From Alphaproteobacteria bacterium (GTDB lineage Bacteria; Pseudomonadota; Alphaproteobacteria; Micropepsales; Micropepsaceae): 64,000 nucleotides of DNA. Each line of letters starts with the position of its first letter. Position 1 is the first letter of the stretch. Location of the stretch: contig CANJIS010000012.1 in assembly GCA_947474565.1 (NCBI GenBank), positions 1 to 64,000 of the forward strand, in the 5' to 3' direction. The notes beneath the pieces are model-generated. The model was not told the DNA's origin, made no database searches, and was given only the letters and a program-made list of their open reading frames with translations. This document shows positions 88 through 36,739 of the stretch, piece after piece. The translations under genes and the position numbers were made by a program.

Positions 88-1034
88 CTACCGCAAACGC
101 CGCTCATAAACTAACATTGCAACTGGACCACTCATTGGGGGCCGGTCAACACTGCCGGCATCGAGCATCTCGCGCATATGCCGCCAGTCCATGCAGATAT
201 AGTGGATAGACCCTTCCTGGCTGTTGGCGATCAGAAGCAAAAACACCTTGCGAAGGAACTCAGCGAACTGCTCTGGCGACATCTCGCCCGAAGCCATCGC
301 GAACTCCCGGTGTTTGGTCTTGCCCGAACCACCCACATGGCCGTCGATCCGCACGTTGTAGGGTGGGTCCGTGAACACCGCCGTAGCGGCAGCTCCACCC
401 ATCAGCCGGGTATAGGTGTCAGGGAGCGTGGCGTCGCCGCAGACCAGCTTATGGACACCTAGCTGCCAGACATCCCCCAAACGGGACTTTGGGGGCCCAT
501 CCATGGGCGGCGGTAACTTGTCCTCGGCTGGGTCCCCGGGTTCCTGGGGGGCCAAGCCTTCAATAAGGCTGTCGATCTCAGGGATCGAAAACCCGATAAC
601 GCCCAGGTCAAACCCTAGGTCGGCCTGCATGAGGCCCTGGAGCTCCAGGGCCAGAAGGCCCTCGTCCCACCCGGCATTCAGAGCCAGCTTGTTGTCAGCC
701 AAGATGTAGGCCCGCTTCCTAGGCTCTGTCAGGCCGGTCAGGCGGATGCAGGGTTGGATTCAAGCCCGAGATCTATAGCCGCCAGGACACGCCCGTGGCC
801 CGCCAGGATATTGCCCCGCTCGTCGGTCAGAACCGGGCTTGTGAACCCGAACACCCTGATGCTGCCGGCAAGCTGTTTGACCTGCTTCTTGGAATGGGTC
901 CGGGCATTGCCCGGCCAAGGTCTCAAGGACGTGGGTGCAAGGTGTTCAATATGGTTTGGTGTGTCTGCCTTGGCCGGCAAGGCCGAGGCAGAATTTAGAA
1001 CTGAAGACGTAGTAACTTTGGTGATTGCCGTCAT
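88..1034 (-). pseudogene. ParB-domain DNA adenine methyltransferase, frameshifted and 3'-truncated
   Basis: Remnant of a fused ParB-like nuclease/DNA N6-adenine methyltransferase of the kind common in alphaproteobacterial prophages. The first part (738-1034) encodes a ParB-like fold with the GHGRVLAA motif and has a strong AGGAGG ribosome-binding site seven bases before its ATG. The reading then stops at 738, but another frame continues straight on with CIRLTGLTEPRKRAYILADN and then the methylase with the DPPYNV catalytic motif, so a single missing base near 749-757 splits the gene. Family similarity ends after MREMLDAG (about position 154); the last 20 or so codons to the stop at 88 look unrelated, and roughly 200 residues of the usual C-terminus are absent. 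The gene is therefore doubly broken. I could not identify the sequence at 1-150 that replaced its end. Confidence 0.75.
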
Positions 1035-1681: not shown

Positions 1682-1963
1682 TTAACCCGAAGATTCCCGC
1701 AACGAGTCCATGCAGGCATCGAGAACATCGAATTCGACGATGTCCACGATGGGCTTGTTGATGACGATTTTCTTCTGAGGCCCGTCCTGGCTCATCACCA
1801 TGATCACGGTATGGATGTTCGGACAGGTTGGCTTGCCGCAGTTGAACTCGCTGACCGATATGATCTGGTCCGGCGCAAGCGTAAGAACTTGACCGGCCAG
1901 GGACTGGATGGCCGCGGTTCTTTCGGGAAGACCAATGCTTTCGGAATCGACCGCGGCGCTCAT
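1682..1963 (-). CDS. Small cysteine-motif protein of unknown function
   Basis: Encodes 93 residues. The start is chosen at the ATG at 1963, which has a good GAGGAAA ribosome-binding site; the long upstream extension in this frame is a shadow of the neighbouring genes. No signal peptide or membrane segment. The centre carries the motif CGKPTCPNIHTVI (Cys42 and Cys47), followed by a hydrophobic and charged C-terminal half. The two cysteines and the position as last gene of a redox operon suggest a metal- or thiol-linked accessory role, but I do not recognise the family with certainty and assign no function. It follows the YkgJ-like gene by 65 bases. Confidence 0.7.
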   Translation of the reverse strand: MSAAVDSESIGLPERTAAIQSLAGQVLTLAPDQIISVSEFNCGKPTCPNIHTVIMVMSQDGPQKKIVINKPIVDIVEFDVLDACMDSLRESSG

Positions 1964-2028
1964 GCGACTTTCCTCTAACGATAAGCCTTTATAGGCCGAA
2001 CCGGCCGAACCGGCAAAGGGCGCAAGCG

Positions 2029-2553
2029 TCAGACGATACGGGGATCGTTCGCCTTCAGTTTCACCGCGCCGAGCCTTCCGGTTCCCGGCTCTTTCTGGAT
2101 GGCAACCGCCTCGTCCTCCGCCACGACACCCAAATCCACTTCCCGGTCCGGGAAGACCGCGATCATTCTGCGCCCGATCTGCACGAATATCGTGGCGCCC
2201 ATCTTCGGGCCGTTGGCGGCCATGTTGCGAATTTCCGAATAATAGGGCTCGGCCCGCCAGGCATTGGGCACATCGGGATCGACGTGAATGACGACTTCCT
2301 TGCCATCCGGCTTGAAGGCAATGATCAGCTTGCTGCGGGACGGCCGCCAATGTTCCTCGAGCGCCGGCGATAGAATATAGCCGCACTGAAAGGCCCGGCA
2401 CACATCCGGACGGATGGCGTGAATGGCGCACCCCTTGGCCTTGACACAATGCGGACACCACACGCCCGTCGGATTGCCGAATTCCGGCACGGTCAATATT
2501 TTGCAACAGAGCGTGCAGGTGCCGCATTGTCTCTGCAGGCCGGCCTCTGTCAT
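2029..2553 (-). CDS. YkgJ-like cysteine cluster protein
   Basis: 174-residue cytoplasmic protein with an N-terminal cysteine cluster: CGTCTLCC, then CPHC, CAIH and CRAFQCG within the first 60 residues. This is the pattern of the YkgJ/zinc- or iron-binding cysteine cluster family, whose members are thought to bind a metal or Fe-S centre; the biochemical role is not established. The start at 2553 overlaps the apbE stop by four bases (ATGA), so translation is probably coupled to apbE; a longer open frame upstream is rejected for this reason. Its place after NosR-like and ApbE genes suggests a part in maturing or repairing their cofactors. Confidence 0.8.
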   Translation of the reverse strand: MTEAGLQRQCGTCTLCCKILTVPEFGNPTGVWCPHCVKAKGCAIHAIRPDVCRAFQCGYILSPALEEHWRPSRSKLIIAFKPDGKEVVIHVDPDVPNAWRAEPYYSEIRNMAANGPKMGATIFVQIGRRMIAVFPDREVDLGVVAEDEAVAIQKEPGTGRLGAVKLKANDPRIV

Positions 2554-3611
2554 GCAGAAAACGCCGCAAAGCTGCCATCGGCCTGAGACGCCAGCCATTC
2601 ACCGCCCTCTGTCGTGATGACGGCCTTGGCGCCGGAATGGGCGCCAAGAATTTTTGCCGCCTGTTCGCGCCCTGCAACATAGATCGACGTCGCCAACCCG
2701 TTGGCGATCATTGCGCGGGGCGCTGTGACGGCGATGGCTGTCATCTTGGCGGCGGACAGCCCCGTGCGCGGATCGAAAATGTGATGATAGCGCCCGGTCT
2801 CCTCAAATTGCGTACCGCAGCCGCCGGACACGGCCAGGCCGATATCCTCAAGGTCGAGCATGCGGCCGAAACGGGCCGGATCCTTCGGGTCGCGCAAGCC
2901 GATGCGCCACGGCCTGCCATCGGGATGATCGCCGACCAGCCTGGTCTCGCCGAGATCGGCATAGACATGTTGGAATCCCTGTTCGCCCAGCATGCCGGCG
3001 ATGCGGTCCGCGACAAAACCCTGACCAATGGAATTCAGGGTAACGCCCATGCCCGGCCGCCCGAATTTTATCCGACGCGAACCAATGTCGATCAGGCGAT
3101 AATCGACCAGCCGCTCTGCCAGACGCCGTGCGTCGGCATCGATGTCGGTTGATTTGTTGGCGCCACTCTTCCCAGGGTCAGGCCAAAAATGCGCCGCGTA
3201 AAGCTGCCAGAGCGGCTGCACCGAAATATCGAAGGCGCCGCTGCTCAGCTCACTGAACCGGCGGCCCACGCCCAGCACATCGCGCAATTCCCATGAGGGA
3301 TTGTCGAGAAATCCGTCGCGATTGAGCCGCGAAATCTCGCTGTCGTCACGCGTGAGGCTGAATATCCCGTTGAGACGCGCGACTTCGGCACGGACTTGCC
3401 CAATCGCGCGGCCGGCGACTGCGGGATCCTCGTGCCACAGCGCCAGTTCCGATACCGCGCCCATCACGTCAAGCTGCCCATCATACAGCTTGCCCCGGGG
3501 GCCAAGCGCGCGGACACCGGCGGCAAGCGCGGGCACGACAGCGGCAGCGGCGGCGATCTTGAGGAAACCGCGCCGCGATTTTTCCGGCAAAATGTTCGGA
3601 AGCATTCTCAT
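2550..3611 (-). CDS. apbE: FAD:protein FMN transferase (ApbE/NosX type), Tat-exported
   Basis: 353 residues. Transfers FMN from FAD onto a threonine of an exported target protein. A twin-arginine signal (KSRRGFLKIA, residues 11-20, then an Ala-rich hydrophobic stretch to about 32) sends it to the periplasm. Family landmarks: LNSIGQGFVADRI at 192-204, SGGCGTQFE at 262-270 and HIFDPRTG at 277-284. The usual metal-binding ADxLxT motif reads ANGLAT at 303-308, so the expected Asp is Asn304. The start overlaps the stop of the upstream NosR-like gene by four bases (ATGA), and that protein carries a matching flavinylation site, which makes it the obvious substrate. Confidence 0.9.
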   Translation of the reverse strand: MRMLPNILPEKSRRGFLKIAAAAAVVPALAAGVRALGPRGKLYDGQLDVMGAVSELALWHEDPAVAGRAIGQVRAEVARLNGIFSLTRDDSEISRLNRDGFLDNPSWELRDVLGVGRRFSELSSGAFDISVQPLWQLYAAHFWPDPGKSGANKSTDIDADARRLAERLVDYRLIDIGSRRIKFGRPGMGVTLNSIGQGFVADRIAGMLGEQGFQHVYADLGETRLVGDHPDGRPWRIGLRDPKDPARFGRMLDLEDIGLAVSGGCGTQFEETGRYHHIFDPRTGLSAAKMTAIAVTAPRAMIANGLATSIYVAGREQAAKILGAHSGAKAVITTEGGEWLASQADGSFAAFSA

Positions 3612-5665
3612 GTCACGACCGCGCGTTTGCGGATGGCAGCAAGCGGCGGACAACGCTGATCGTCGTAATATTCCACCTGGCAGTCCAGGCACTGAAAACA
3701 TTCGGTCATGTTGATTTTTCCGGTCACCGAAATCGCCTTCACCGGACAGGAATTCTCGCACAGATGACACGGACTGCCGCATTGGGGCCGCCGTTTCAGA
3801 AGGTCGACAAGATGCAACCGGCCAGCCAGCGCCAGCACCCCGCCCAGCGGACAGAGAAAGCGGCAATAGGCGCGCTCGGTGAAGAGGCCGATCATCAGCA
3901 GGGCGCAGGCGTAAATGACATAAGGCCAGGCGCGGGTGAAGTGCGAGGTGATGGCGGTGTTGAAGGGTTCTATTTCCGCGGCTCTGGACCAGGCATCGAT
4001 CGAGAAGGCGGCAAGGCCGAGGATCAGCGCCGCCGAAACATATTTTCCCAGCCATAGATATTTTTGGACCCGTTCCGGCGGATTCCACTGGGGCAGACCG
4101 ATGGCGCGCGCGAACTGTGCCAGCAATTCCTGCAGGGCGCCGAAGGGGCAAAGCCAGCCGCAAAATACGCCGCGGCCCAGGATCAGGAGCGAGAAGACCG
4201 TATAGATGACGATCATCACCATCAGCGGTTCCGCCAGATAGGAGCCCCAGCCATAATGGTGGAACGGCGCTTCCATATAATTGACGACATTCAGGATGGA
4301 GAGCTGGGCGCCGGCGATCCAGCCTCCCCAGATCAGGACAAAAAGCAGAAACGCGTTGCGGATGATCCGGTAGGGGCGTCCCAACTGCACAAGTCTGGTT
4401 TGAAACGCGAGGATCAAGGTCAACAGCGTGAGCAGCGCGGCCATGATGGCGACATTGACCCGGGAATCGCTCCAGGCCTGGATCCAGAGCGGAGCCCGAG
4501 GAGGAGGAGGCTGTAAGATGTGGGCGCCAGGAAGCTGGTAGTCCACTGGAAAGGCCAGCGACATGGGCGCGCCGGCGGCCGTCCGGCCGCTCACCAGCAG
4601 TTCCAGCCGCCAAGGCTTCAAGGGATCGAACTTGTTACCGGGCGGCAGGGCGAAAATCGCAGCATGATCGAGGGCTCTTATGCCTTCGCGTCCGTTGGTC
4701 GCGATGCCCTGGTACCGGTTGACGGTGAATTGGTATGCCGCATTCCCTTGAACCACGCGAAGGCGGCCGAACCGGTTTGCGCCGGTCTCATCGACAAAAT
4801 CATAAGGGCCTTTTGAGGCGACAAAGATCTTCCAGTTGGTGAAGGCACCTCTTCTGGCGCGCGGACCGAAGTAAGCCGTGTAGTCGCGCCCAAGAACATT
4901 CTTGGCGATGCCGGCCGGTGTCGCCAGGCCGGTATAGATATCAACATAGGTGTCATTGGGGCCGGAGGGCGGAACATCCAGCTTGCCGCCCGCAGCATTG
5001 GCTTTGGCGAGCGCAGCCGTGACGTCCTTGCCAGTGATCACCTTATGGGTGATCGAGCCCTTGGACAGCAGCTCGTCCCATGACATCTGCTTGAACCCGT
5101 CCATATCGACAATGGGCGCCGTTTGCTTCTCAGCCATCCAGCCACGGCTGATCAGAACACGCTGGGCGGAATCGAAAATCGCATCGCGCATATACAGTGC
5201 GCTGACCGTGGCGCCATCGACATAGTCAGGATGCAGCGCGCCGGGATTCTTGCCTTCCGCCGCCAGCCCCGACATGCGCGCCAGATAGGTATGAAGCTGA
5301 ACCTGCCGGCTGGGCTCTTCAAAGACGTGCGGTTCGCGATGAAAGATGACCTTGGCGCCGCTGATCTTGCCGGTCAGATCAACACCCGCGATCACATCGA
5401 AGGGAATGCCGGAAAAACCGGGGGCATGAACGATGTCGAGTGTAGAAAAAACATAGCCGGCAAGTTTGCCGCCGCGATAGACGGCGATGGCCGGCGGCGC
5501 GCCCTCTTCCGGGCCGAGCCTTTCGGCGCCCGGCCACACCGCCGCCATAACCTGGGGCGTCAGACGGTCCTGGAGATGCCCGGCTTCGGCGCCTGCCTGC
5601 GCAACGCCAAGGAGCGAAAAGAGAAGGAAGGTAAAGAGGCGCAACACAGCCTTAGACACATGCAT
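3608..5665 (-). CDS. NosR/NirI-like membrane flavoprotein with Fe-S clusters
   Basis: 685 residues from the ATG at 5665; the longer frame upstream overlaps the previous gene and precedes the signal peptide, so it is rejected. Order: signal peptide (1-27), periplasmic FMN-binding domain with the flavinylation motif DGATVS (Thr153), a long periplasmic region, about five to six membrane helices from about residue 400, two CxxxCP motifs (CGWLCP and CRFLCP) facing the cytoplasm, and a C-terminal ferredoxin-like part with CGSPCHLCENSCP and CFQCLDC. NosR proteins pass electrons between the quinol pool and periplasmic partners. No nosZ is present; the neighbours are SoxCD-like, so the partner is probably the sulfite dehydrogenase or its cytochrome rather than N2O reductase. 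Confidence 0.88.
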   Translation of the reverse strand: MHVSKAVLRLFTFLLFSLLGVAQAGAEAGHLQDRLTPQVMAAVWPGAERLGPEEGAPPAIAVYRGGKLAGYVFSTLDIVHAPGFSGIPFDVIAGVDLTGKISGAKVIFHREPHVFEEPSRQVQLHTYLARMSGLAAEGKNPGALHPDYVDGATVSALYMRDAIFDSAQRVLISRGWMAEKQTAPIVDMDGFKQMSWDELLSKGSITHKVITGKDVTAALAKANAAGGKLDVPPSGPNDTYVDIYTGLATPAGIAKNVLGRDYTAYFGPRARRGAFTNWKIFVASKGPYDFVDETGANRFGRLRVVQGNAAYQFTVNRYQGIATNGREGIRALDHAAIFALPPGNKFDPLKPWRLELLVSGRTAAGAPMSLAFPVDYQLPGAHILQPPPPRAPLWIQAWSDSRVNVAIMAALLTLLTLILAFQTRLVQLGRPYRIIRNAFLLFVLIWGGWIAGAQLSILNVVNYMEAPFHHYGWGSYLAEPLMVMIVIYTVFSLLILGRGVFCGWLCPFGALQELLAQFARAIGLPQWNPPERVQKYLWLGKYVSAALILGLAAFSIDAWSRAAEIEPFNTAITSHFTRAWPYVIYACALLMIGLFTERAYCRFLCPLGGVLALAGRLHLVDLLKRRPQCGSPCHLCENSCPVKAISVTGKINMTECFQCLDCQVEYYDDQRCPPLAAIRKRAVVT

Positions 5666-5693
5666 GCCGAAATGAGCCCCACCCACTATAGCT

Positions 5694-6218
5694 TCAGTGT
5701 GCTCCAGCCGGTTTGAGGACGCTATATTGAACATAGCAACCCGACCCCTCGAGCACGGTGTATTTTACATTATTTTTGTTTTTCAGGTCGCGCCAAGTCT
5801 CGATGCTATACAGCATGTGAGCCGCGCCGCCGCCTTGCCGTTTGCCATAGGATTTCTTCACGCCCACCCCAAGATCGTGGCAGAGCCCGCGGCTTCTATT
5901 CATCTGCATACCCGGCATGTCCGGGCCGACGGCCTGCGCAGACGCATCATTCAGGACGAGCGTTACGGATGAAAGCTTGTCCGCCTTGTCAAAGGCGAAC
6001 TGAGCCTCAAACGGAAATTTGCCCATCGGATATGGCGTGACCAGCTTGGTGACGTTGCCGTCGCTGTCCGGATGGAGATCCGTGCTTTTCTTGGTCTGAT
6101 TGTTCGAGGCGGCGGCCACCTGAGCGGGGGTCATGCCCCATTTGGTGAATTTCCAGTCCGCTTTTGCTGTGCCGGCGGCGCAGCAGAAAAGGACCAGCAC
6201 AATTCCCAAATGCTTCAT
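5694..6218 (-). CDS. Secreted protein of unknown function in the sox/nosR-like operon
   Basis: 174 residues from the ATG at 6218, preceded by an AAGGGCGG ribosome-binding site. An N-terminal signal peptide (MKHLGIVLVLFCCAAGTAKA) predicts a periplasmic protein that begins DWKFTKWGMTPAQV, resembling other small exported proteins with a WGM start. The mature part holds two cysteines (GLCHDL and GSGCYV) that could form a disulfide. It sits between the cytochrome and the NosR-like gene, 28 bases before the latter, and is preceded by a strong hairpin. No function can be assigned. Confidence 0.75.
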   Translation of the reverse strand: MKHLGIVLVLFCCAAGTAKADWKFTKWGMTPAQVAAASNNQTKKSTDLHPDSDGNVTKLVTPYPMGKFPFEAQFAFDKADKLSSVTLVLNDASAQAVGPDMPGMQMNRSRGLCHDLGVGVKKSYGKRQGGGAAHMLYSIETWRDLKNKNNVKYTVLEGSGCYVQYSVLKPAGAH

Positions 6219-6232
6219 GGAGCCGCCCTTCC

Positions 6233-6266
6233 GGACCATGTGTGGCGCACTGCGCCACACATGTCC
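6233..6266 (-). promoter_or_regulatory. Strong intergenic hairpin between soxD-like and the next gene
   Basis: Arms 6238-6249 and 6251-6262 are perfect 12-base complements around base 6250; as RNA this gives an 11-bp stem with a 3-base loop, extended by GGAC/GTCC with one bulged base. It begins 11 bases after the cytochrome stop and ends at the ribosome-binding site of the next gene. No T run follows, so it is more likely an mRNA-stabilising or processing element that sets unequal expression of the upstream and downstream genes. Confidence 0.6.
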
Positions 6267-6276
6267 GTTCAACACC

Positions 6277-6849
6277 CTATTTCGGCATCTTCAGAAGAGA
6301 CGCCGGAATTCTGGGCGAGTTGGGCTTCCAATCCGGCGCCCGCTTCCAGTCATCACCGATCGGCATCTTGACCTTCGCCAGATTGTTTTGATCGAGGGTC
6401 TGGTTCTCCGGGATGATCTTGTTGGCGGCAAGCAAATAGGCCGTCAAGGCATAGACCTCATTGGGGGCCAGCGTGCCTTCATTCCCCAGCGGCATGCCGC
6501 GATGGATGAAATCCCACAGGATGGTTGCAACCGGCGACCGTACGGCGATGCCGCCGCGAGCCCAGGCGTCACCCTCTGTTGGGCCTTTCTTCGCTACCAG
6601 ACCGGGCGCCGCCGTCGCGCCACCGGCAGCATTTTCGCCGTGACAGCCTTCACAGCCCTTCTCGACATAGAGCACTTTGCCTTCAGCGGCGTTGCCATGA
6701 CCCACCGGAAGGTTCGCGCCCGTGGGGCTGATGGTGATGTCCTGGGCGAGTTCCGCCTGGGACGCAGCGTGCCCAATGCCATAGCTCTGCGCGAAGGCCG
6801 AACCGGCCAGAAGAACAACAAATACCGGAACGAGTTTAAGCGAGGCCAT
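6277..6849 (-). CDS. soxD: SoxD-like monohaem cytochrome c
   Basis: 190 residues. Electron acceptor for the molybdenum dehydrogenase encoded just upstream. Signal peptide to about residue 21 (ending SAFAQS), then a class I cytochrome domain with haem site CEGCH (66-70) and a probable axial Met119 in HRGMPLG. The segment around YGIGHAAS and the DEVYALTAYLL-like stretch (here NEVYALTAYLL) match the N-terminal half of SoxD. Classical SoxD has a second haem domain; none is present here, so this is a short, one-haem version. The start at 6849 overlaps the end of soxC by 14 bases, implying coupled translation. Confidence 0.85.
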   Translation of the reverse strand: MASLKLVPVFVVLLAGSAFAQSYGIGHAASQAELAQDITISPTGANLPVGHGNAAEGKVLYVEKGCEGCHGENAAGGATAAPGLVAKKGPTEGDAWARGGIAVRSPVATILWDFIHRGMPLGNEGTLAPNEVYALTAYLLAANKIIPENQTLDQNNLAKVKMPIGDDWKRAPDWKPNSPRIPASLLKMPK

Positions 6850-8134
6850 TGGTAACGCTCCCATCGGCGTTGATCTTCCATTTCATGATGGTGTTGTTAT
6901 TGCCCGGTGGCCGCCATGCCGGCGTCACGGGCACGCCCAACGCCTTGGCAAGTTCATCGCGGCCCGGTTGCACCTGCCCGATCGCATCGGTGGTACGCGA
7001 AAGAATGAGGTGTTCACCGCCCTGCCAGTTGAACATGGTGCCGAACCGGACATGCGCCATGGGATGCGCCGTGCCTTTCAGCTCAGCGAGTTTCCACGTC
7101 TTGCCGTTGTCGGTGGACACCTCCACCTTTTTAACGGCGGCCTGTCCGGACCAGGCCAGGCCCGTGATTTCGTACCATCCCTTATCGGGCAGTTTCTGCC
7201 CGCCGGACGGGAAGGTGATGATCGACTTGGGTCCTATCTGGTAGATCATCGCCGCGCCGAGCGTCGACCGGTTCAAATGCCCATAGTCGTCCATGTTGAG
7301 CTGATACTGGTCGACGGCCTTGATGTGGCGCAGCCACTTGGTGTTGAAGATGCCCTCGAAGCCGGGAACGATCAGGCGCACCGGAAAACCCTGTTGCGGA
7401 CGCAGGGGCTCGCCATTCATGCCATAGGCGACCATGACGTCGGCCATCGCCTTGCTCATGGGCATGGTAGAGGCGCCTTTAATCTCTTCGGCGCCTTCCG
7501 CGACGAACCAATTTGCTTCCTTTTTAACGCCGACCTCTTTGAACAGAGTCGAAAGAAGCACGCCGGTCCATTCGGCGTTGCTGGTCAGCCCGTGCGATGA
7601 CTGTACGTTCTTGTCCGTCGCGCTATGGCTGTTGGAATTACACTCGATAAAATGAAACCGGCTGACGGACGGAAAGCGTTTCAAGTCCGCCATGGTGAAG
7701 ACCCGGGGCTTGTCCACCAACCCGTTGATCATCAGCGTGTGCTTCGCCGGATCGATGTCCGGAATAAAGGCGCCCTTGGTCGTCGCCGTATAGTGGAGCG
7801 ACGAGGCCTGGATCGAACCGTAGGAATCCTGCAACGGCGTGGCGATGTGGAAGGTCAGGCCAAATTCGTCGGGTGACGAGCGCGAATAGCCGTTCATGAT
7901 GGCCGGCACGCGCTTGGAGGTCACATAATGCGAACGTGTGCCGTAGGCGACCAGATCGTCGTCGGTCGCGATCATCGGCGCTTCGTTCTCGGCGTATGTC
8001 GGGAGGCCCGAACCCGCTACCGCGACTTTCGTTTGCGCCAGCGCGGCTGTGCCGACTGCACCTGCAGCTACCGCCCCCACGGCCGCTGCACCACCTTTTA
8101 AGAGCTCTCTTCGGCTCTTAGATTTCGGATCCAT
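6836..8134 (-). CDS. soxC: SoxC-family sulfite/sulfane dehydrogenase, molybdenum subunit
   Basis: 432 residues from the ATG at 8134 with a GGGAG ribosome-binding site. A twin-arginine signal (KSRRELLKGG, then an Ala/Gly-rich stretch to about 33) sends the folded, cofactor-loaded enzyme to the periplasm. The sulfite-oxidase fold is clear: PDIDPAKHTLMINGLVDKP, then FHFIEC with the molybdenum-ligating Cys165, SHGLTSNAEWTGV, GFPVRLIVPGFEG, and a C-terminal dimerisation domain with KKVEVSTDNGKTW. It oxidises sulfite or protein-bound sulfane sulfur and passes electrons to the cytochrome downstream. The rest of a sox set (soxXYZAB) is not in the window. It heads a seven-gene minus-strand operon. Confidence 0.9.
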   Translation of the reverse strand: MDPKSKSRRELLKGGAAAVGAVAAGAVGTAALAQTKVAVAGSGLPTYAENEAPMIATDDDLVAYGTRSHYVTSKRVPAIMNGYSRSSPDEFGLTFHIATPLQDSYGSIQASSLHYTATTKGAFIPDIDPAKHTLMINGLVDKPRVFTMADLKRFPSVSRFHFIECNSNSHSATDKNVQSSHGLTSNAEWTGVLLSTLFKEVGVKKEANWFVAEGAEEIKGASTMPMSKAMADVMVAYGMNGEPLRPQQGFPVRLIVPGFEGIFNTKWLRHIKAVDQYQLNMDDYGHLNRSTLGAAMIYQIGPKSIITFPSGGQKLPDKGWYEITGLAWSGQAAVKKVEVSTDNGKTWKLAELKGTAHPMAHVRFGTMFNWQGGEHLILSRTTDAIGQVQPGRDELAKALGVPVTPAWRPPGNNNTIMKWKINADGSVTNGLA

Positions 8135-9649: not shown

Positions 9650-10732
9650 GTGAAATCCAAATGGATGCTTTTGGGTGCTGCCGCGTTGATGGCTGTGCCG
9701 GCGATTGTCTGGGCTCAACAATATCCGATCCAAGTCGTGCCGGTGGGCAAAGGGCCATACACATTCCCGCCCGGCTTCCGCACCGATTTCAGCAAGGTGC
9801 AGATTCTGGTGACGGAAAAGCTGTCGTCCAATCTCTACATCCTGCACGGCAATGCCGGCGTGGACACGGCGCATCCCGACGCTTCGGGCGGCCGCATGGC
9901 GGTGCTGTTCGGGCCTGACGGCGTCTTCCTGGTGGATTCCGAGAACAAGCCGGTGGCTGCCAAAAGCCTGGCGGCGATCCGCACCTTCACCCAGGCCCCG
10001 ATCAAGATGATGGTCAACAGCCACGCCCATAGCGATCATACCGGCGGCAATGGCTTCTTCGCCCGTCAGGGCGCTGTGATCATGGCGCAGGAAAATCTGC
10101 GCTACGAAATGATGCCAAATCCCAATGCGCCGCCGCGGCCCGCAGGCGCGCCGCCCTTGCCGGCTTTCGATCCGATGGACCTTCCCACCGTCACTTATAA
10201 GTATGAGGCGGCGACCGAGGGCAAACCCGCCATGGTCATTCACATGAATGGCGAGACGGTGGACCTTATTCCCATGATGCCGTCGCATATGGGCGGCGAC
10301 ACGGTGGTCAAGTTTGAAAAAGCCAACACGATCTACATCCAGGATTTCTATCGCAACTTTGGTTATCCCTTTGCCGACCAGGCCAATGGCGGTTCGATCA
10401 AGGGCATGCTGAAGGCGGTGGACTTGCTGATGAACCTGTCCGACGACAAGACCGTACTGGTGCCGGGCCATGGCACCTTCATCCACAAGCAGGATTTGCT
10501 GCCCTACCGCGCCATGATCGTGGACCTGCTGGCCAAGGTGGGTGAATTGCGCAAATCGGGCCGGTCGCTGAAGGACATTCTGGCGATGAACATCACCCAG
10601 AAATACGACGCGACCACCCTGGGCGATACCCAGGACAGCAAGGACCGCTTTGTCACCGAGCTTTACAACGAAGCGGTGGGCGAGTTGCCGCCGATCGTGA
10701 ATGGCCGGCGCAACATGCCGCGGAACAACTGA
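9650..10732 (+). CDS. Exported metallo-beta-lactamase-fold hydrolase
   Basis: 360 residues. Starts at a GTG with GAGGGAG eight bases upstream. Signal peptide ends AIVWAQ (about 23). The zinc-binding motif HAHSDH follows in NSHAHSDHTGGN (about 124-135), with further candidate ligands in MPSHMGGD and the C-terminal VPGHGTFIH. The sequence is not of the antibiotic-degrading B1-B3 classes but of a broad periplasmic MBL-fold hydrolase group; the substrate is unknown. It is convergent with the B3-type gene and ends six bases from it. Confidence 0.8.
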   Translation: MKSKWMLLGAAALMAVPAIVWAQQYPIQVVPVGKGPYTFPPGFRTDFSKVQILVTEKLSSNLYILHGNAGVDTAHPDASGGRMAVLFGPDGVFLVDSENKPVAAKSLAAIRTFTQAPIKMMVNSHAHSDHTGGNGFFARQGAVIMAQENLRYEMMPNPNAPPRPAGAPPLPAFDPMDLPTVTYKYEAATEGKPAMVIHMNGETVDLIPMMPSHMGGDTVVKFEKANTIYIQDFYRNFGYPFADQANGGSIKGMLKAVDLLMNLSDDKTVLVPGHGTFIHKQDLLPYRAMIVDLLAKVGELRKSGRSLKDILAMNITQKYDATTLGDTQDSKDRFVTELYNEAVGELPPIVNGRRNMPRNN

Positions 10733-10738
10733 TCGGCG

Positions 10739-11654
10739 TTACGGTTTTGCTGCCGCCTGCTCGGCCATGATGGCGTGGTACATGGCTTCTTCCATGTCCG
10801 CCTCACGCGTACAGGTCGCCTTGTCGATATAAGGGTTGGGCGCGCCCGGCTTCAGCTTGGGATATTTCCCCAGCAGGTCGAATTCCGAACCATGGTCTCC
10901 CAGCAGCACATCGCAGGGGAAGGTGCGCACGATGGCGAAGGATTTATCGAACCCCTTTGCCACGTCGGCGCTGACGAAATTGCCCGCGCGCAACGAGCAG
11001 CCGAACACCACATTATAAGTCTGGCCGTTCTCGCTGGCGGTGGTGGTCCAGGTGGTGCAGCCATGGGTATGGCCCGGTGTGAGATGGGCCGTGAGCGTGA
11101 CGCCGCCCAGGCTTACCGTGTCGCCGTCAACAAACACCCGGTCAATCGGATGCACTTTGCCGCCGGGCCGGATATGGGCCAGGGCCGGAATATCCTCGGC
11201 CATCGCCATCACCTGGGCGCCTGTCATCTGCTTGGCCAGGGCATCGCCTTCCATGTGATCGCCATGGGCGTGGTTGCCCAAAATGATCTTGGTGTCGGTG
11301 AATTTGAAACCCAACTGATCCACTGACTTGGCGATGGTGGGGACGTTCTTCTCATAGGTGGTGTCGATGAGAATGTTGCCTGCCGGGGTGACGATCAGAT
11401 AGGTGGCCAGGGTTTTGACCCCGACATAATAGATGTTGCCAATAATCTTATGGGGCGGAAATTGTTCGGCCTGATCGGCCGCCGTGCCCATGTTGCGGCC
11501 CAGAATGGCGGCCGGGGGTCTGGCCCTGAAACTGGATGCTGGGATGGTTCGGCGGCCCGCCGCCCTGGCCCCAAGCCGCCGGTATGAAGTCCATTGCGAT
11601 CAAGCCCGGCGCAGCCAGCGCCATCGCGGTCCATAATAAAGTGCGTTTGCCCAT
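10739..11654 (-). pseudogene. Subclass B3-like metallo-beta-lactamase, interrupted by a +1 frameshift
   Basis: The mature enzyme frame is intact: HAHGDH zinc motif in NHAHGDHMEGD, the third-site TPGHTHGC and the last ligand in LGDHGSEF, all typical of B3 metallo-beta-lactamases. Its signal peptide (MGKRTLLWTAMALAAPG) lies in another frame starting at the ATG at 11654, which has an AAGGGGG ribosome-binding site. Removing one base from the G5 run at 11514-11518 joins them as QTPAAILGRNMGTAADQ, giving a 304-residue exported protein of normal length. As sequenced, no signal peptide can reach the enzyme. This may be a real mutation, phase variation or a base-calling error in the homopolymer. Whether it attacks beta-lactams cannot be told. 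Confidence 0.75.
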
Positions 11655-34660: not shown

Positions 34661-36739
34661 TTAAGCTCTGGGAAGTCTGAAAGCGATCATCTCTTCCGTA
34701 ACGTTGCCGCCGCCGCACGCCACCACGATGTATTGGCGGCCACCCAGCATATAGGTCATGGGCGCGCCGGCCGTTCCCGCCGGCATATAGACCGCGCCCT
34801 TTTCCTCACCCGTGGCTTTGTCGTAGGCGCGCAGCATGGCGCCGCGCCGCCCATCGGGGCCGGTGCTGAAGCCGGTATCGCCGCATATCACCAACGTCTT
34901 GGTGGTGGTTGGGCCCACCATGCCGACCTGTCCGGTGCGCGGAATTTTGAGGCCCTTGAGCGCGGGATGGTTCTTGATCGCGTCCGGCGTTTCGCCATGG
35001 GCGACCTGCCAGACCAGCGTACCCTTGCTGATATCCAGCGCCGACAGGCTGCCATAGGGCGGCTTGAGCAACGGCAGACCTTGTACCGTGCCGTTGGGGC
35101 CCGCAGCGGGAGCAGCAGCGGCTGGCGTAGCAGCAGCAGCGGGACGCGCCGGAGCCGGAGTGGCAGGCGCGGCGGCGACCGCGCCAAGAGCCCGCGTGAC
35201 ACGGGTGGTCTGGCCCGGCTGGCCTTGAACATATTCATAGTCCGAGACGTCGAGATTCTGGTTCTTGACGATGCCCAAGGTTGCGGCCGTGCGCTGCGAA
35301 TAGACATAGACCATATGGGTATCGGGATCGTAGGAGCCGCCCGCCCAATCAGTGCCGCCATTGGAGCCCGGCGTATGCAAGGTGCCGCGATTGCCGCCTG
35401 CCACCGCCATGGTCGGCGGCGTGAACAGCGGACCAATAGTATATTGGCTGTCGACGATCCGGATCGCCTCGGCGCGCAGTTCAGGCGTGAAGTTGATCAG
35501 ATCGTCATGGCTGACGCCTTGAATGTCATAGGCCGGCGGCTTGGATGGATGCGGCTGGGTTGGGGCATACCATTCCTCCGGCACGTTGCCGGCAGGCACG
35601 GGCTTTTCCTCGATCGGCCAGACCGGCTCGCCGGTTTCGCGATTGAGCACATAGAGCCAGCATTGCTTGCTGGGCTGGGCCAGCGCCTTGACGATTTTGC
35701 CATCCACCGGGATGTCTGCAAGAATCGGCGCGCAGGGAATATCCATGTCCCATAAACCGTGATGCACGAATTGATAGTGCCAGCGGCGCTTGCCGGTTTC
35801 GGCATCCACTGCAACCAGGCTTTCCCCGAACAAAGCGTTGCCGTGGCGATATTGGCCGTTGTAATCGCCGCCCGGCAATTCGACCGGCAGATAGACCAGA
35901 CCCAGATCCGGATCGGCCGACATCTGCGCCCACACGCCGGTATTGCCCACATCTTCGGCCTGGCCCGGCTTGATCCAGCTTTCATAGCCGAATTCACCCT
36001 TGCGCGGGATGGTGTGGAAAATCCATTTGCGCTTGCCGGTGCGGGCATCGAAGCCGCGGACATAGCCTTTGACATTCTTGTGGTGCGGCGGCGCGCCGCC
36101 GGTCAGATGCGCAGCGCCGACGACGACGGTGTTCTTGACCACCAGCGGCGTGGAGTGAAGGCCGATCTCGCCCGTAACCAGATCAATGGTCTGATCGTCA
36201 TTCTGTTTGAGGTCCACAACCCCGTCCACGCCGAAGCCCTTGACCGGAATGCCGGTGCGGGCATCCAGCGCGATCATCTGATAGCCGGGGGTGACATAGA
36301 TGATGCGTTCTTCCTTGCCGTCGGTCCAATAGGACACGCCATGGCCGGAATATTGCCGCGGCGCATTGCGGCCGCGCTCACCTTCATCCTTCCGGAACAA
36401 CCAGAGAATTTCACCATTGGTGGCGTCCAGCGCCACCACATCGCGGCGTGAGCCGCAGGTGGTGTAGAGCTTGCCCTTGATCACCAGCGGCGTGGATTCA
36501 AAAACAAATTCCGGGCGCGCGCCCATTGCGTCGGGCTTGAAGCGCCAGGCGACTTCCAACTGGTTGAAGTTGGAGGCATTGACCTGATCCAGCGGCACAT
36601 AGCGGGTGCTGGCGATGTCACCGCCATAATAGCGCCATTCCGTGTCAGCCGCTTGTGCCTGAACTGTGCTGCCAAGCTTGGTCAGCATCGCGCCAGCCAG
36701 CGGCAAAGACAAAGCCATCCGTCGCGTGAAATCGCGCAT
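34661..36739 (-). CDS. PQQ-type quinoprotein dehydrogenase (beta-propeller)
   Basis: 692 residues. Signal sequence with paired arginines (DFTRRMALSLPLAG) to about residue 30, then an eight-blade propeller with repeated tryptophan-docking motifs (GEILWLFRKD, GKRKWIFHTI, GKRRWHYQFVHHGLWDMD, GTLVWQVAHGE). It resembles membrane-type glucose dehydrogenases and other PQQ enzymes without the membrane domain, so it is periplasmic. An Ala/Pro-rich linker of about 30 residues near 520-550 splits the propeller. Substrate and PQQ supply cannot be read here; no pqq genes are in the window. Monocistronic by position. Confidence 0.88.
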   Translation of the reverse strand: MRDFTRRMALSLPLAGAMLTKLGSTVQAQAADTEWRYYGGDIASTRYVPLDQVNASNFNQLEVAWRFKPDAMGARPEFVFESTPLVIKGKLYTTCGSRRDVVALDATNGEILWLFRKDEGERGRNAPRQYSGHGVSYWTDGKEERIIYVTPGYQMIALDARTGIPVKGFGVDGVVDLKQNDDQTIDLVTGEIGLHSTPLVVKNTVVVGAAHLTGGAPPHHKNVKGYVRGFDARTGKRKWIFHTIPRKGEFGYESWIKPGQAEDVGNTGVWAQMSADPDLGLVYLPVELPGGDYNGQYRHGNALFGESLVAVDAETGKRRWHYQFVHHGLWDMDIPCAPILADIPVDGKIVKALAQPSKQCWLYVLNRETGEPVWPIEEKPVPAGNVPEEWYAPTQPHPSKPPAYDIQGVSHDDLINFTPELRAEAIRIVDSQYTIGPLFTPPTMAVAGGNRGTLHTPGSNGGTDWAGGSYDPDTHMVYVYSQRTAATLGIVKNQNLDVSDYEYVQGQPGQTTRVTRALGAVAAAPATPAPARPAAAATPAAAAPAAGPNGTVQGLPLLKPPYGSLSALDISKGTLVWQVAHGETPDAIKNHPALKGLKIPRTGQVGMVGPTTTKTLVICGDTGFSTGPDGRRGAMLRAYDKATGEEKGAVYMPAGTAGAPMTYMLGGRQYIVVACGGGNVTEEMIAFRLPRA

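Follow-up and report, generated by a model that had tools for sequence, protein, structure and literature searches.

The operon lies on the minus strand of the window, the 64,000-nucleotide stretch of DNA analysed here, where it runs from position 8134 to 1682 in the genome of a soil-type bacterium. All seven genes of the original prediction were present in the order given there: a SoxC-like enzyme, a one-haem cytochrome c, a secreted 174-aa protein, a NosR-like protein, ApbE, a CxxCxxCC-like protein and a small Cys protein. The core of the operon is formed by the SoxC-like Mo enzyme, the one-haem SoxD-like cytochrome, the NosR-like protein and the Tat-exported ApbE. The expected ATGA coupling of apbE to nosR was seen at 3611-3608, a further ATGA overlap joins apbE to the ykgJ-like gene at 2553-2550, and the soxC and cytochrome genes also overlap. 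The secreted protein (5694..6218, minus strand) belongs to no known family and occurs beside NosR only in a congener, genome G451. The small Cys-containing protein (1682..1963, minus strand; about 93 aa) is the end gene of the block that the window shares with this congener. Neither protein matched a Pfam family, and an AlphaFold model of the 174-aa protein (pLDDT 41.1) was too poor for a fold search and was not used. The gene at 2029..2553 (minus strand) encodes a small Cys-cluster protein; its "YkgJ-like" label is based on a sub-threshold match (PF03692, 12 of 23 bits). A promoter and terminator scan of the operon gave results near the chance level.

Several neighbouring genes were also recorded. 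A ParB/DNA-methylase gene (88-1034, minus strand) is interrupted by an apparent frameshift, and a distant relative (49-52%) lies in a single frame on the corresponding flank of the G451 operon (L043:3224-4426), which suggests that this flank is mobile or phage-like. On the other side, an MBL-fold protein encoded at 10739-11491 (minus strand) scored barely above the NCBIfam cut-off for subclass B3 metallo-beta-lactamases (240.9 of 240 bits), and another MBL-fold protein at 9650-10732 (plus strand) weakly resembled the SoxH-related "quinoprotein relay" metallohydrolases (64 of 280 bits).

The SoxC-like gene (6836..8134, minus strand) encodes a 432-aa Mo-cofactor catalytic subunit of the sulfite-oxidase family (PF00174 and PF03404) with a twin-arginine leader, as read from the sequence. 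The protein scored 371 bits with the SoxC model TIGR04555, under the cut-off of 420, and 130 and 128 bits with the SorA (NF052245, cut-off 600) and SorT (NF052247, cut-off 570) models, respectively. Its nearest solved structure is SoxC (PDB 2xts, E 2e-58). The Mo-ligand Cys is kept (HFIEC), and the alignment showed that the canonical FERxH motif is replaced by YTATTKG, with Arg changed to Ala, His changed to Thr and a two-residue insertion. The pattern HY-x-ATT-[K/R] is common to a clade of six sequences, which comprises the window enzyme, a paralogue in the same genome that is 78.5% identical to it and lies at a contig end (G000:C5:137136-138380, L102), and proteins of the genomes G451, G391, G449 and G434; most other SoxCs carry H[FY]ERxH. 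Judging from the alignment and from the spacing to the Mo-ligand Cys, the lost Arg would equate to Arg78 of SorT, which forms a salt bridge with a haem propionate of SorU (PMC4760952). In G391, G449 and G434 the SoxC-like gene has no adjoining NosR gene (a cytochrome was recognised beside two of the three), and profile searches found no NosR anywhere in the G449 and G434 genomes. Because three of the six clade members are without an adjoining NosR, the altered motif tracks the SoxC clade and not NosR. Among the NosR-linked SoxCs aligned from other families, FERSH is retained.

The cytochrome gene (6277..6864, minus strand) probably starts at the ATG at 6849, which overlaps the end of soxC, and its product carries a Sec-type leader, again as read from the sequence. 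As predicted, it is a monohaem SoxD-like protein, with one CxxCH; it matched only the N-terminal (first) haem domain of SoxD (PDB 2xts_B, E 4e-16) and is thus not a two-haem SoxD partner. Furthermore, profile searches showed SoxZ (PF08770) to be absent from both the window genome and G451. The original assignment as a sulfite dehydrogenase, or as SoxCD proper, was not supported in view of the sub-cut-off score, the one-haem partner, the lack of SoxZ and the altered substrate/haem-contact motif. A sulfite dehydrogenase identity is not established for an enzyme that falls below the SoxC cut-off and whose clade has lost the Arg and His of FERxH. The genome has three further genes of the SoxC/sulfite-oxidase family elsewhere (contigs C8, C5 and C16). 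Members of the order are rich in SoxC-family genes (L101, L104, L112, L114 and L119). As soxZ was found in none of the six order members tested, the soxC label in these genomes probably hides several functions.

The fourth gene (3608..5734, minus strand; likely start ATG 5665, 685 aa) encodes a NosR/NapH-like membrane flavo-iron-sulfur protein, which scored 508 bits with NF046105, under the cut-off of 1000, and 66.8 bits with Fer4_5 (PF12801). Its two Cys clusters in the C-terminal part and both CxxxCP[FL]G motifs are retained. A PDB search with this protein returned no solved relative, and its AlphaFold model (pLDDT 48.6, from a 4-row alignment) was too poor for a fold search and was left unused. 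The Thr of DGATVS, the predicted FMN attachment site, is residue 153 counted from Met24 (176 in the longest ORF; codon 5207..5209, minus strand). The site reads D-Y-V-D-G-A-T and deviates at one position from the published ApbE motif, D-x-x-[S/T]-G-A-[S/T] (PMC12052999), so that the earlier wording of a fitting ApbE target was slightly strong. An FMN_bind match lies at the right place with 12.7 bits (cut-off 22). The Asp and Thr of the motif are invariant across the near relatives tested, and the intervening Gly and Ala vary, being altered in L038 and L046 as well; Thr153 is a plausible flavin site. The overlapping gene (2550..3611, minus strand) encodes an ApbE/NosX-like FAD:protein FMN transferase (PF02424, 179 bits against a cut-off of 25.6) with a Tat-type leader, SRRGFLK, for export. 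With a PF12801 membrane protein and an overlapping ApbE, the pair fits the definition of NapH-like flavinylated systems. ApbE was considered as an exclusive marker of the operon and was rejected, as ApbE occurs in 32 of 69 congeners and the window genome encodes a second one.

The NosR-like protein might serve N2O or nitrite respiration, with its enzyme encoded elsewhere or lost and its adjacency to SoxC incidental; the family name and the nosZ-linked NosRs of the congeners G421 and G422 speak for this. However, a profile search of the window genome (2.18 Mb, 99.8% complete) found no nosZ, merely a match to a CuA-type fragment, and lactonase-type (clade-III, L-) NosZ was absent from this genome and from the congener G451. 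A hidden L-NosZ partner was also rejected, since other carriers gave only weak sub-cut-off propeller matches. A PF02613 profile search of the window genome was uninformative. The original prediction had allowed for a nosZ and nos gene set elsewhere that lacks its own NosR; the genome holds no nosZ and no second NosR, and the operon NosR is its sole one. Nor does nirS adjoin the NosR-like gene in the gene order of the window. In a NosR tree of 52 rows, 27 of the 28 rows of the NosR/NirI group adjoin nosZ or nirS, and this group stands apart from the window NosR at 100/100. The window protein groups with proteins from G451, Beijerinckiaceae, Baikal and G391 in a six-member clade supported at 100/100, and the wider set around this clade comprises PQQ-linked, XoxF-linked and SoxC-linked rows; the NosR relatives outside the nosZ/nirS group adjoin SoxC, XoxF or PQQ-alcohol-dehydrogenase genes. 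Together with the recurrence of the SoxC adjacency in four families, described below, these data make a role in N2O or nitrite respiration very improbable, and we strongly disfavour it. In a phylum sample of 398 genomes, 25 of 27 newly labelled strong NosR matches lay beside nosZ or nirS (the other two were on truncated loci), indicating that the window-type NosR group is rare.

A NosR close to that of the window occurred in only 2 of 69 genus genomes, its own and G451, and the NosRs of G421 and G422 are divergent. In G451 the seven genes recur in the same order with 70-85% identity, and the similarity between the two regions is essentially confined to the operon, the only other likeness found being a distant, phage-like methylase gene that lies downstream of the operon in each. 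The SoxC-cytochrome-NosR neighbourhood was also found in three more alphaproteobacterial families with other gene orders, four families in total, and so is not unique to the strain; the genomes were a sample and not an exhaustive set, and the relatives are largely MAGs. A Beijerinckiaceae MAG has nosR-apbE-soxC-cyt at two loci (possibly two strains binned together). In family f125 the order is nosR-nosR'-soxC-cyt in two genera. The second NosR of f125 has lost the GAT motif and the FMN_bind match (in the one copy scanned), and the first copy retains both. These tandem paralogues lie at L174:7383-11649 and L175:876-5386, where the SoxC-proximal copy, without the flavin motif, is probably a natural flavin-free NosR, to judge by its sequence.

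In family f75, soxC is followed by a reading frame in which a homologue of the operon's cytochrome is joined to NapH-like and NosR-like modules. The fusion is about 1222 and 1263 residues long at the two loci measured (L042:9296-12961 and L060:8459-12247), has no internal stop and lies upstream of XoxF/MoxJ-type genes; matching loci were found in two further genomes. The frame has a signal-like stretch before the NosR part and none at the cytochrome-NapH join, and the product may undergo later cleavage, or have an internal start, before the NosR part.

In G391 and G836, NosR-apbE and soxC-cyt are at separate loci. SoxC-cytochrome pairs without NosR are common, also in the order of the window bacterium, and unlinked pairs occur in Methylobacterium, Methylosinus and Paraburkholderia; therefore, NosR is not required by the SoxC enzyme family. 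The NosR-linked SoxCs fall into three or more distinct, supported positions of the SoxC tree, and their NosR partners are closer kin. Because these SoxCs are scattered while the NosRs of the window and the Beijerinckiaceae share a 100/100 clade, the partnership was made or exchanged repeatedly. We estimated the chance of NosR-SoxC adjacency at about 1% per genome (1 NosR and 4 SoxC-family genes in 2.18 Mb). Given this estimate and the recurrence of the pairing in four families with differing gene orders, chance adjacency is implausible.

We conclude that NosR and ApbE serve the SoxC-cytochrome pair as a dedicated electron conduit. The repeated pairing with SoxC, the fusion to a cytochrome and the missing N2O reductase are best explained if the cytochrome and NosR are linked for electron transfer. 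The original interpretation is supported in assigning NosR/ApbE to the SoxC-cytochrome pair instead of N2O reduction, but not in naming a sulfite dehydrogenase as partner. The genes probably encode one periplasm-to-membrane electron-transfer system. The Tat-exported SoxC-like enzyme would pass two electrons to the one-haem cytochrome, which would exchange them with the NosR-like protein at its periplasmic FMN domain, and from there they would pass through the iron-sulfur clusters of this protein to the quinone pool; the exported ApbE would attach the FMN. The flavin attachment, the electron contact and the electron direction are what we infer. Ubiquinone has a potential of about +90 mV. Flow from the enzyme to quinone is favoured because related NosRs adjoin dehydrogenases and because the SorU haem lies near that potential (in SorT/SorU, haem +108 mV and Mo -18/+110 mV; PMC4760952). 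In PMC8238504, a flavinylated NapH-like protein is likewise proposed to drain the alcohol oxidase ExaA.

The same wiring could run in reverse, with quinol or a cytoplasmic donor feeding NosR, the cytochrome and finally the SoxC-like enzyme as a periplasmic reductase. Reductases do exist within its superfamily, namely MsrP and eukaryotic nitrate reductase, and the SoxC clade of the window is without the conserved Arg and His of sulfite-oxidising members. Characterised NosR, NapH and PceC systems also feed reductases, according to PMC8238504 and PMC12052999. Nevertheless, SoxC/SoxD proteins are known as dehydrogenases, XoxF/PQQ dehydrogenases are the neighbours in other lineages and the NosR-linked SoxCs aligned from other families have FERSH, and we regard reversed flow as credible but unlikely. 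The lost FERxH and the absence of SoxZ are also the grounds for proposing a new flavin/iron-sulfur-wired Mo class, with a substrate that is neither sulfite nor SoxYZ-bound sulfane and with NosR leading to quinone or to low-potential transmembrane delivery; this proposal we consider doubtful. NosR/ApbE might instead be a service module that reductively activates the Mo/haem enzyme or gives it redox protection, outside the catalytic electron path. Loss of the ApbE protein NosX abolishes N2O reduction in vivo, while the isolated N2OR was assembled and active in vitro, and an indirect role of NosX in maintaining the N2OR cycle was proposed (PMC7660919). The occurrence of SoxC-cytochrome pairs without NosR agrees with such a service role, but the covalent cytochrome-NapH/NosR fusion of f75 favours a direct path, and we hold this explanation to be improbable.

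With electron transfer from the SoxC-like enzyme through NosR to quinone as the preferred reading, the operon points to an undescribed electron route between cell envelope and membrane, because four bacterial families share the pairing. No published description of NosR with SoxC was found in the literature searched. NosR is usually annotated as N2O reduction and SoxC as sulfur oxidation, and both labels would mislead here because the genome is without nosZ and soxZ. The cytochrome-NosR fusion offers a tractable object for identifying the electron partners of NosR-type proteins.

NosR/NosX serve N2O reduction and NirI/NirX serve cd1 nitrite reductase. The operon resembles both in its periplasmic FMN-type domain, membrane CxxxCP motifs, C-terminal Fe-S clusters and Tat-exported ApbE, whereas its NosR differs in the separate 100/100 branch, the score of 508 of 1000 bits and the lack of nosZ in the genome. 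Paracoccus SoxCD sulfane dehydrogenase (PDB 2xts) is the closest solved homologue of both the enzyme (2e-58) and the cytochrome (4e-16), but the operon cytochrome has a single haem where SoxD has two, SoxZ is absent from the genome, FERxH is lost and the enzyme scores below the SoxC equivalog level. The SorAB and SorT-SorU systems are alike in pairing a Mo subunit of the sulfite-oxidase fold with a small one-haem cytochrome, although the operon enzyme reached merely 130 of 600 bits for SorA and 128 of 570 bits for SorT; we know of no NosR in these systems. Relatives of the operon NosR adjoin ExaA/XoxF PQQ clusters with a NapH-like protein in f75 and f78, for which electron flow from the dehydrogenase to the chain was proposed; unlike them, the operon has no PQQ dehydrogenase gene. 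A PQQ quinoprotein dehydrogenase-like gene lies 26 kb away (34661-36739, minus strand), and the PQQ alcohol dehydrogenase model gave nine matches in the genome. The idea that the operon needs a PQQ dehydrogenase as partner was rejected, as PQQ-type genes were present in 16 of 16 genomes checked, whether or not these carry NosR. Finally, Méheust et al. 2021 (eLife, PMC8238504) report NapH-like flavinylated systems in 2153 genomes, note that most of these systems are still unassigned, and name nosZ, pceA, nirS and exaA as partners; sulfite and molybdopterin enzymes do not come up in their main text. The operon is like these systems in that a PF12801 Fe-S membrane protein stands beside ApbE and serves an extracytoplasmic oxidoreductase. 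The SoxC-type Mo enzyme is a new partner for these known systems, and with its recurrent pairing a molybdenum enzyme family joins the list of those that flavinylated NapH-like proteins work with.
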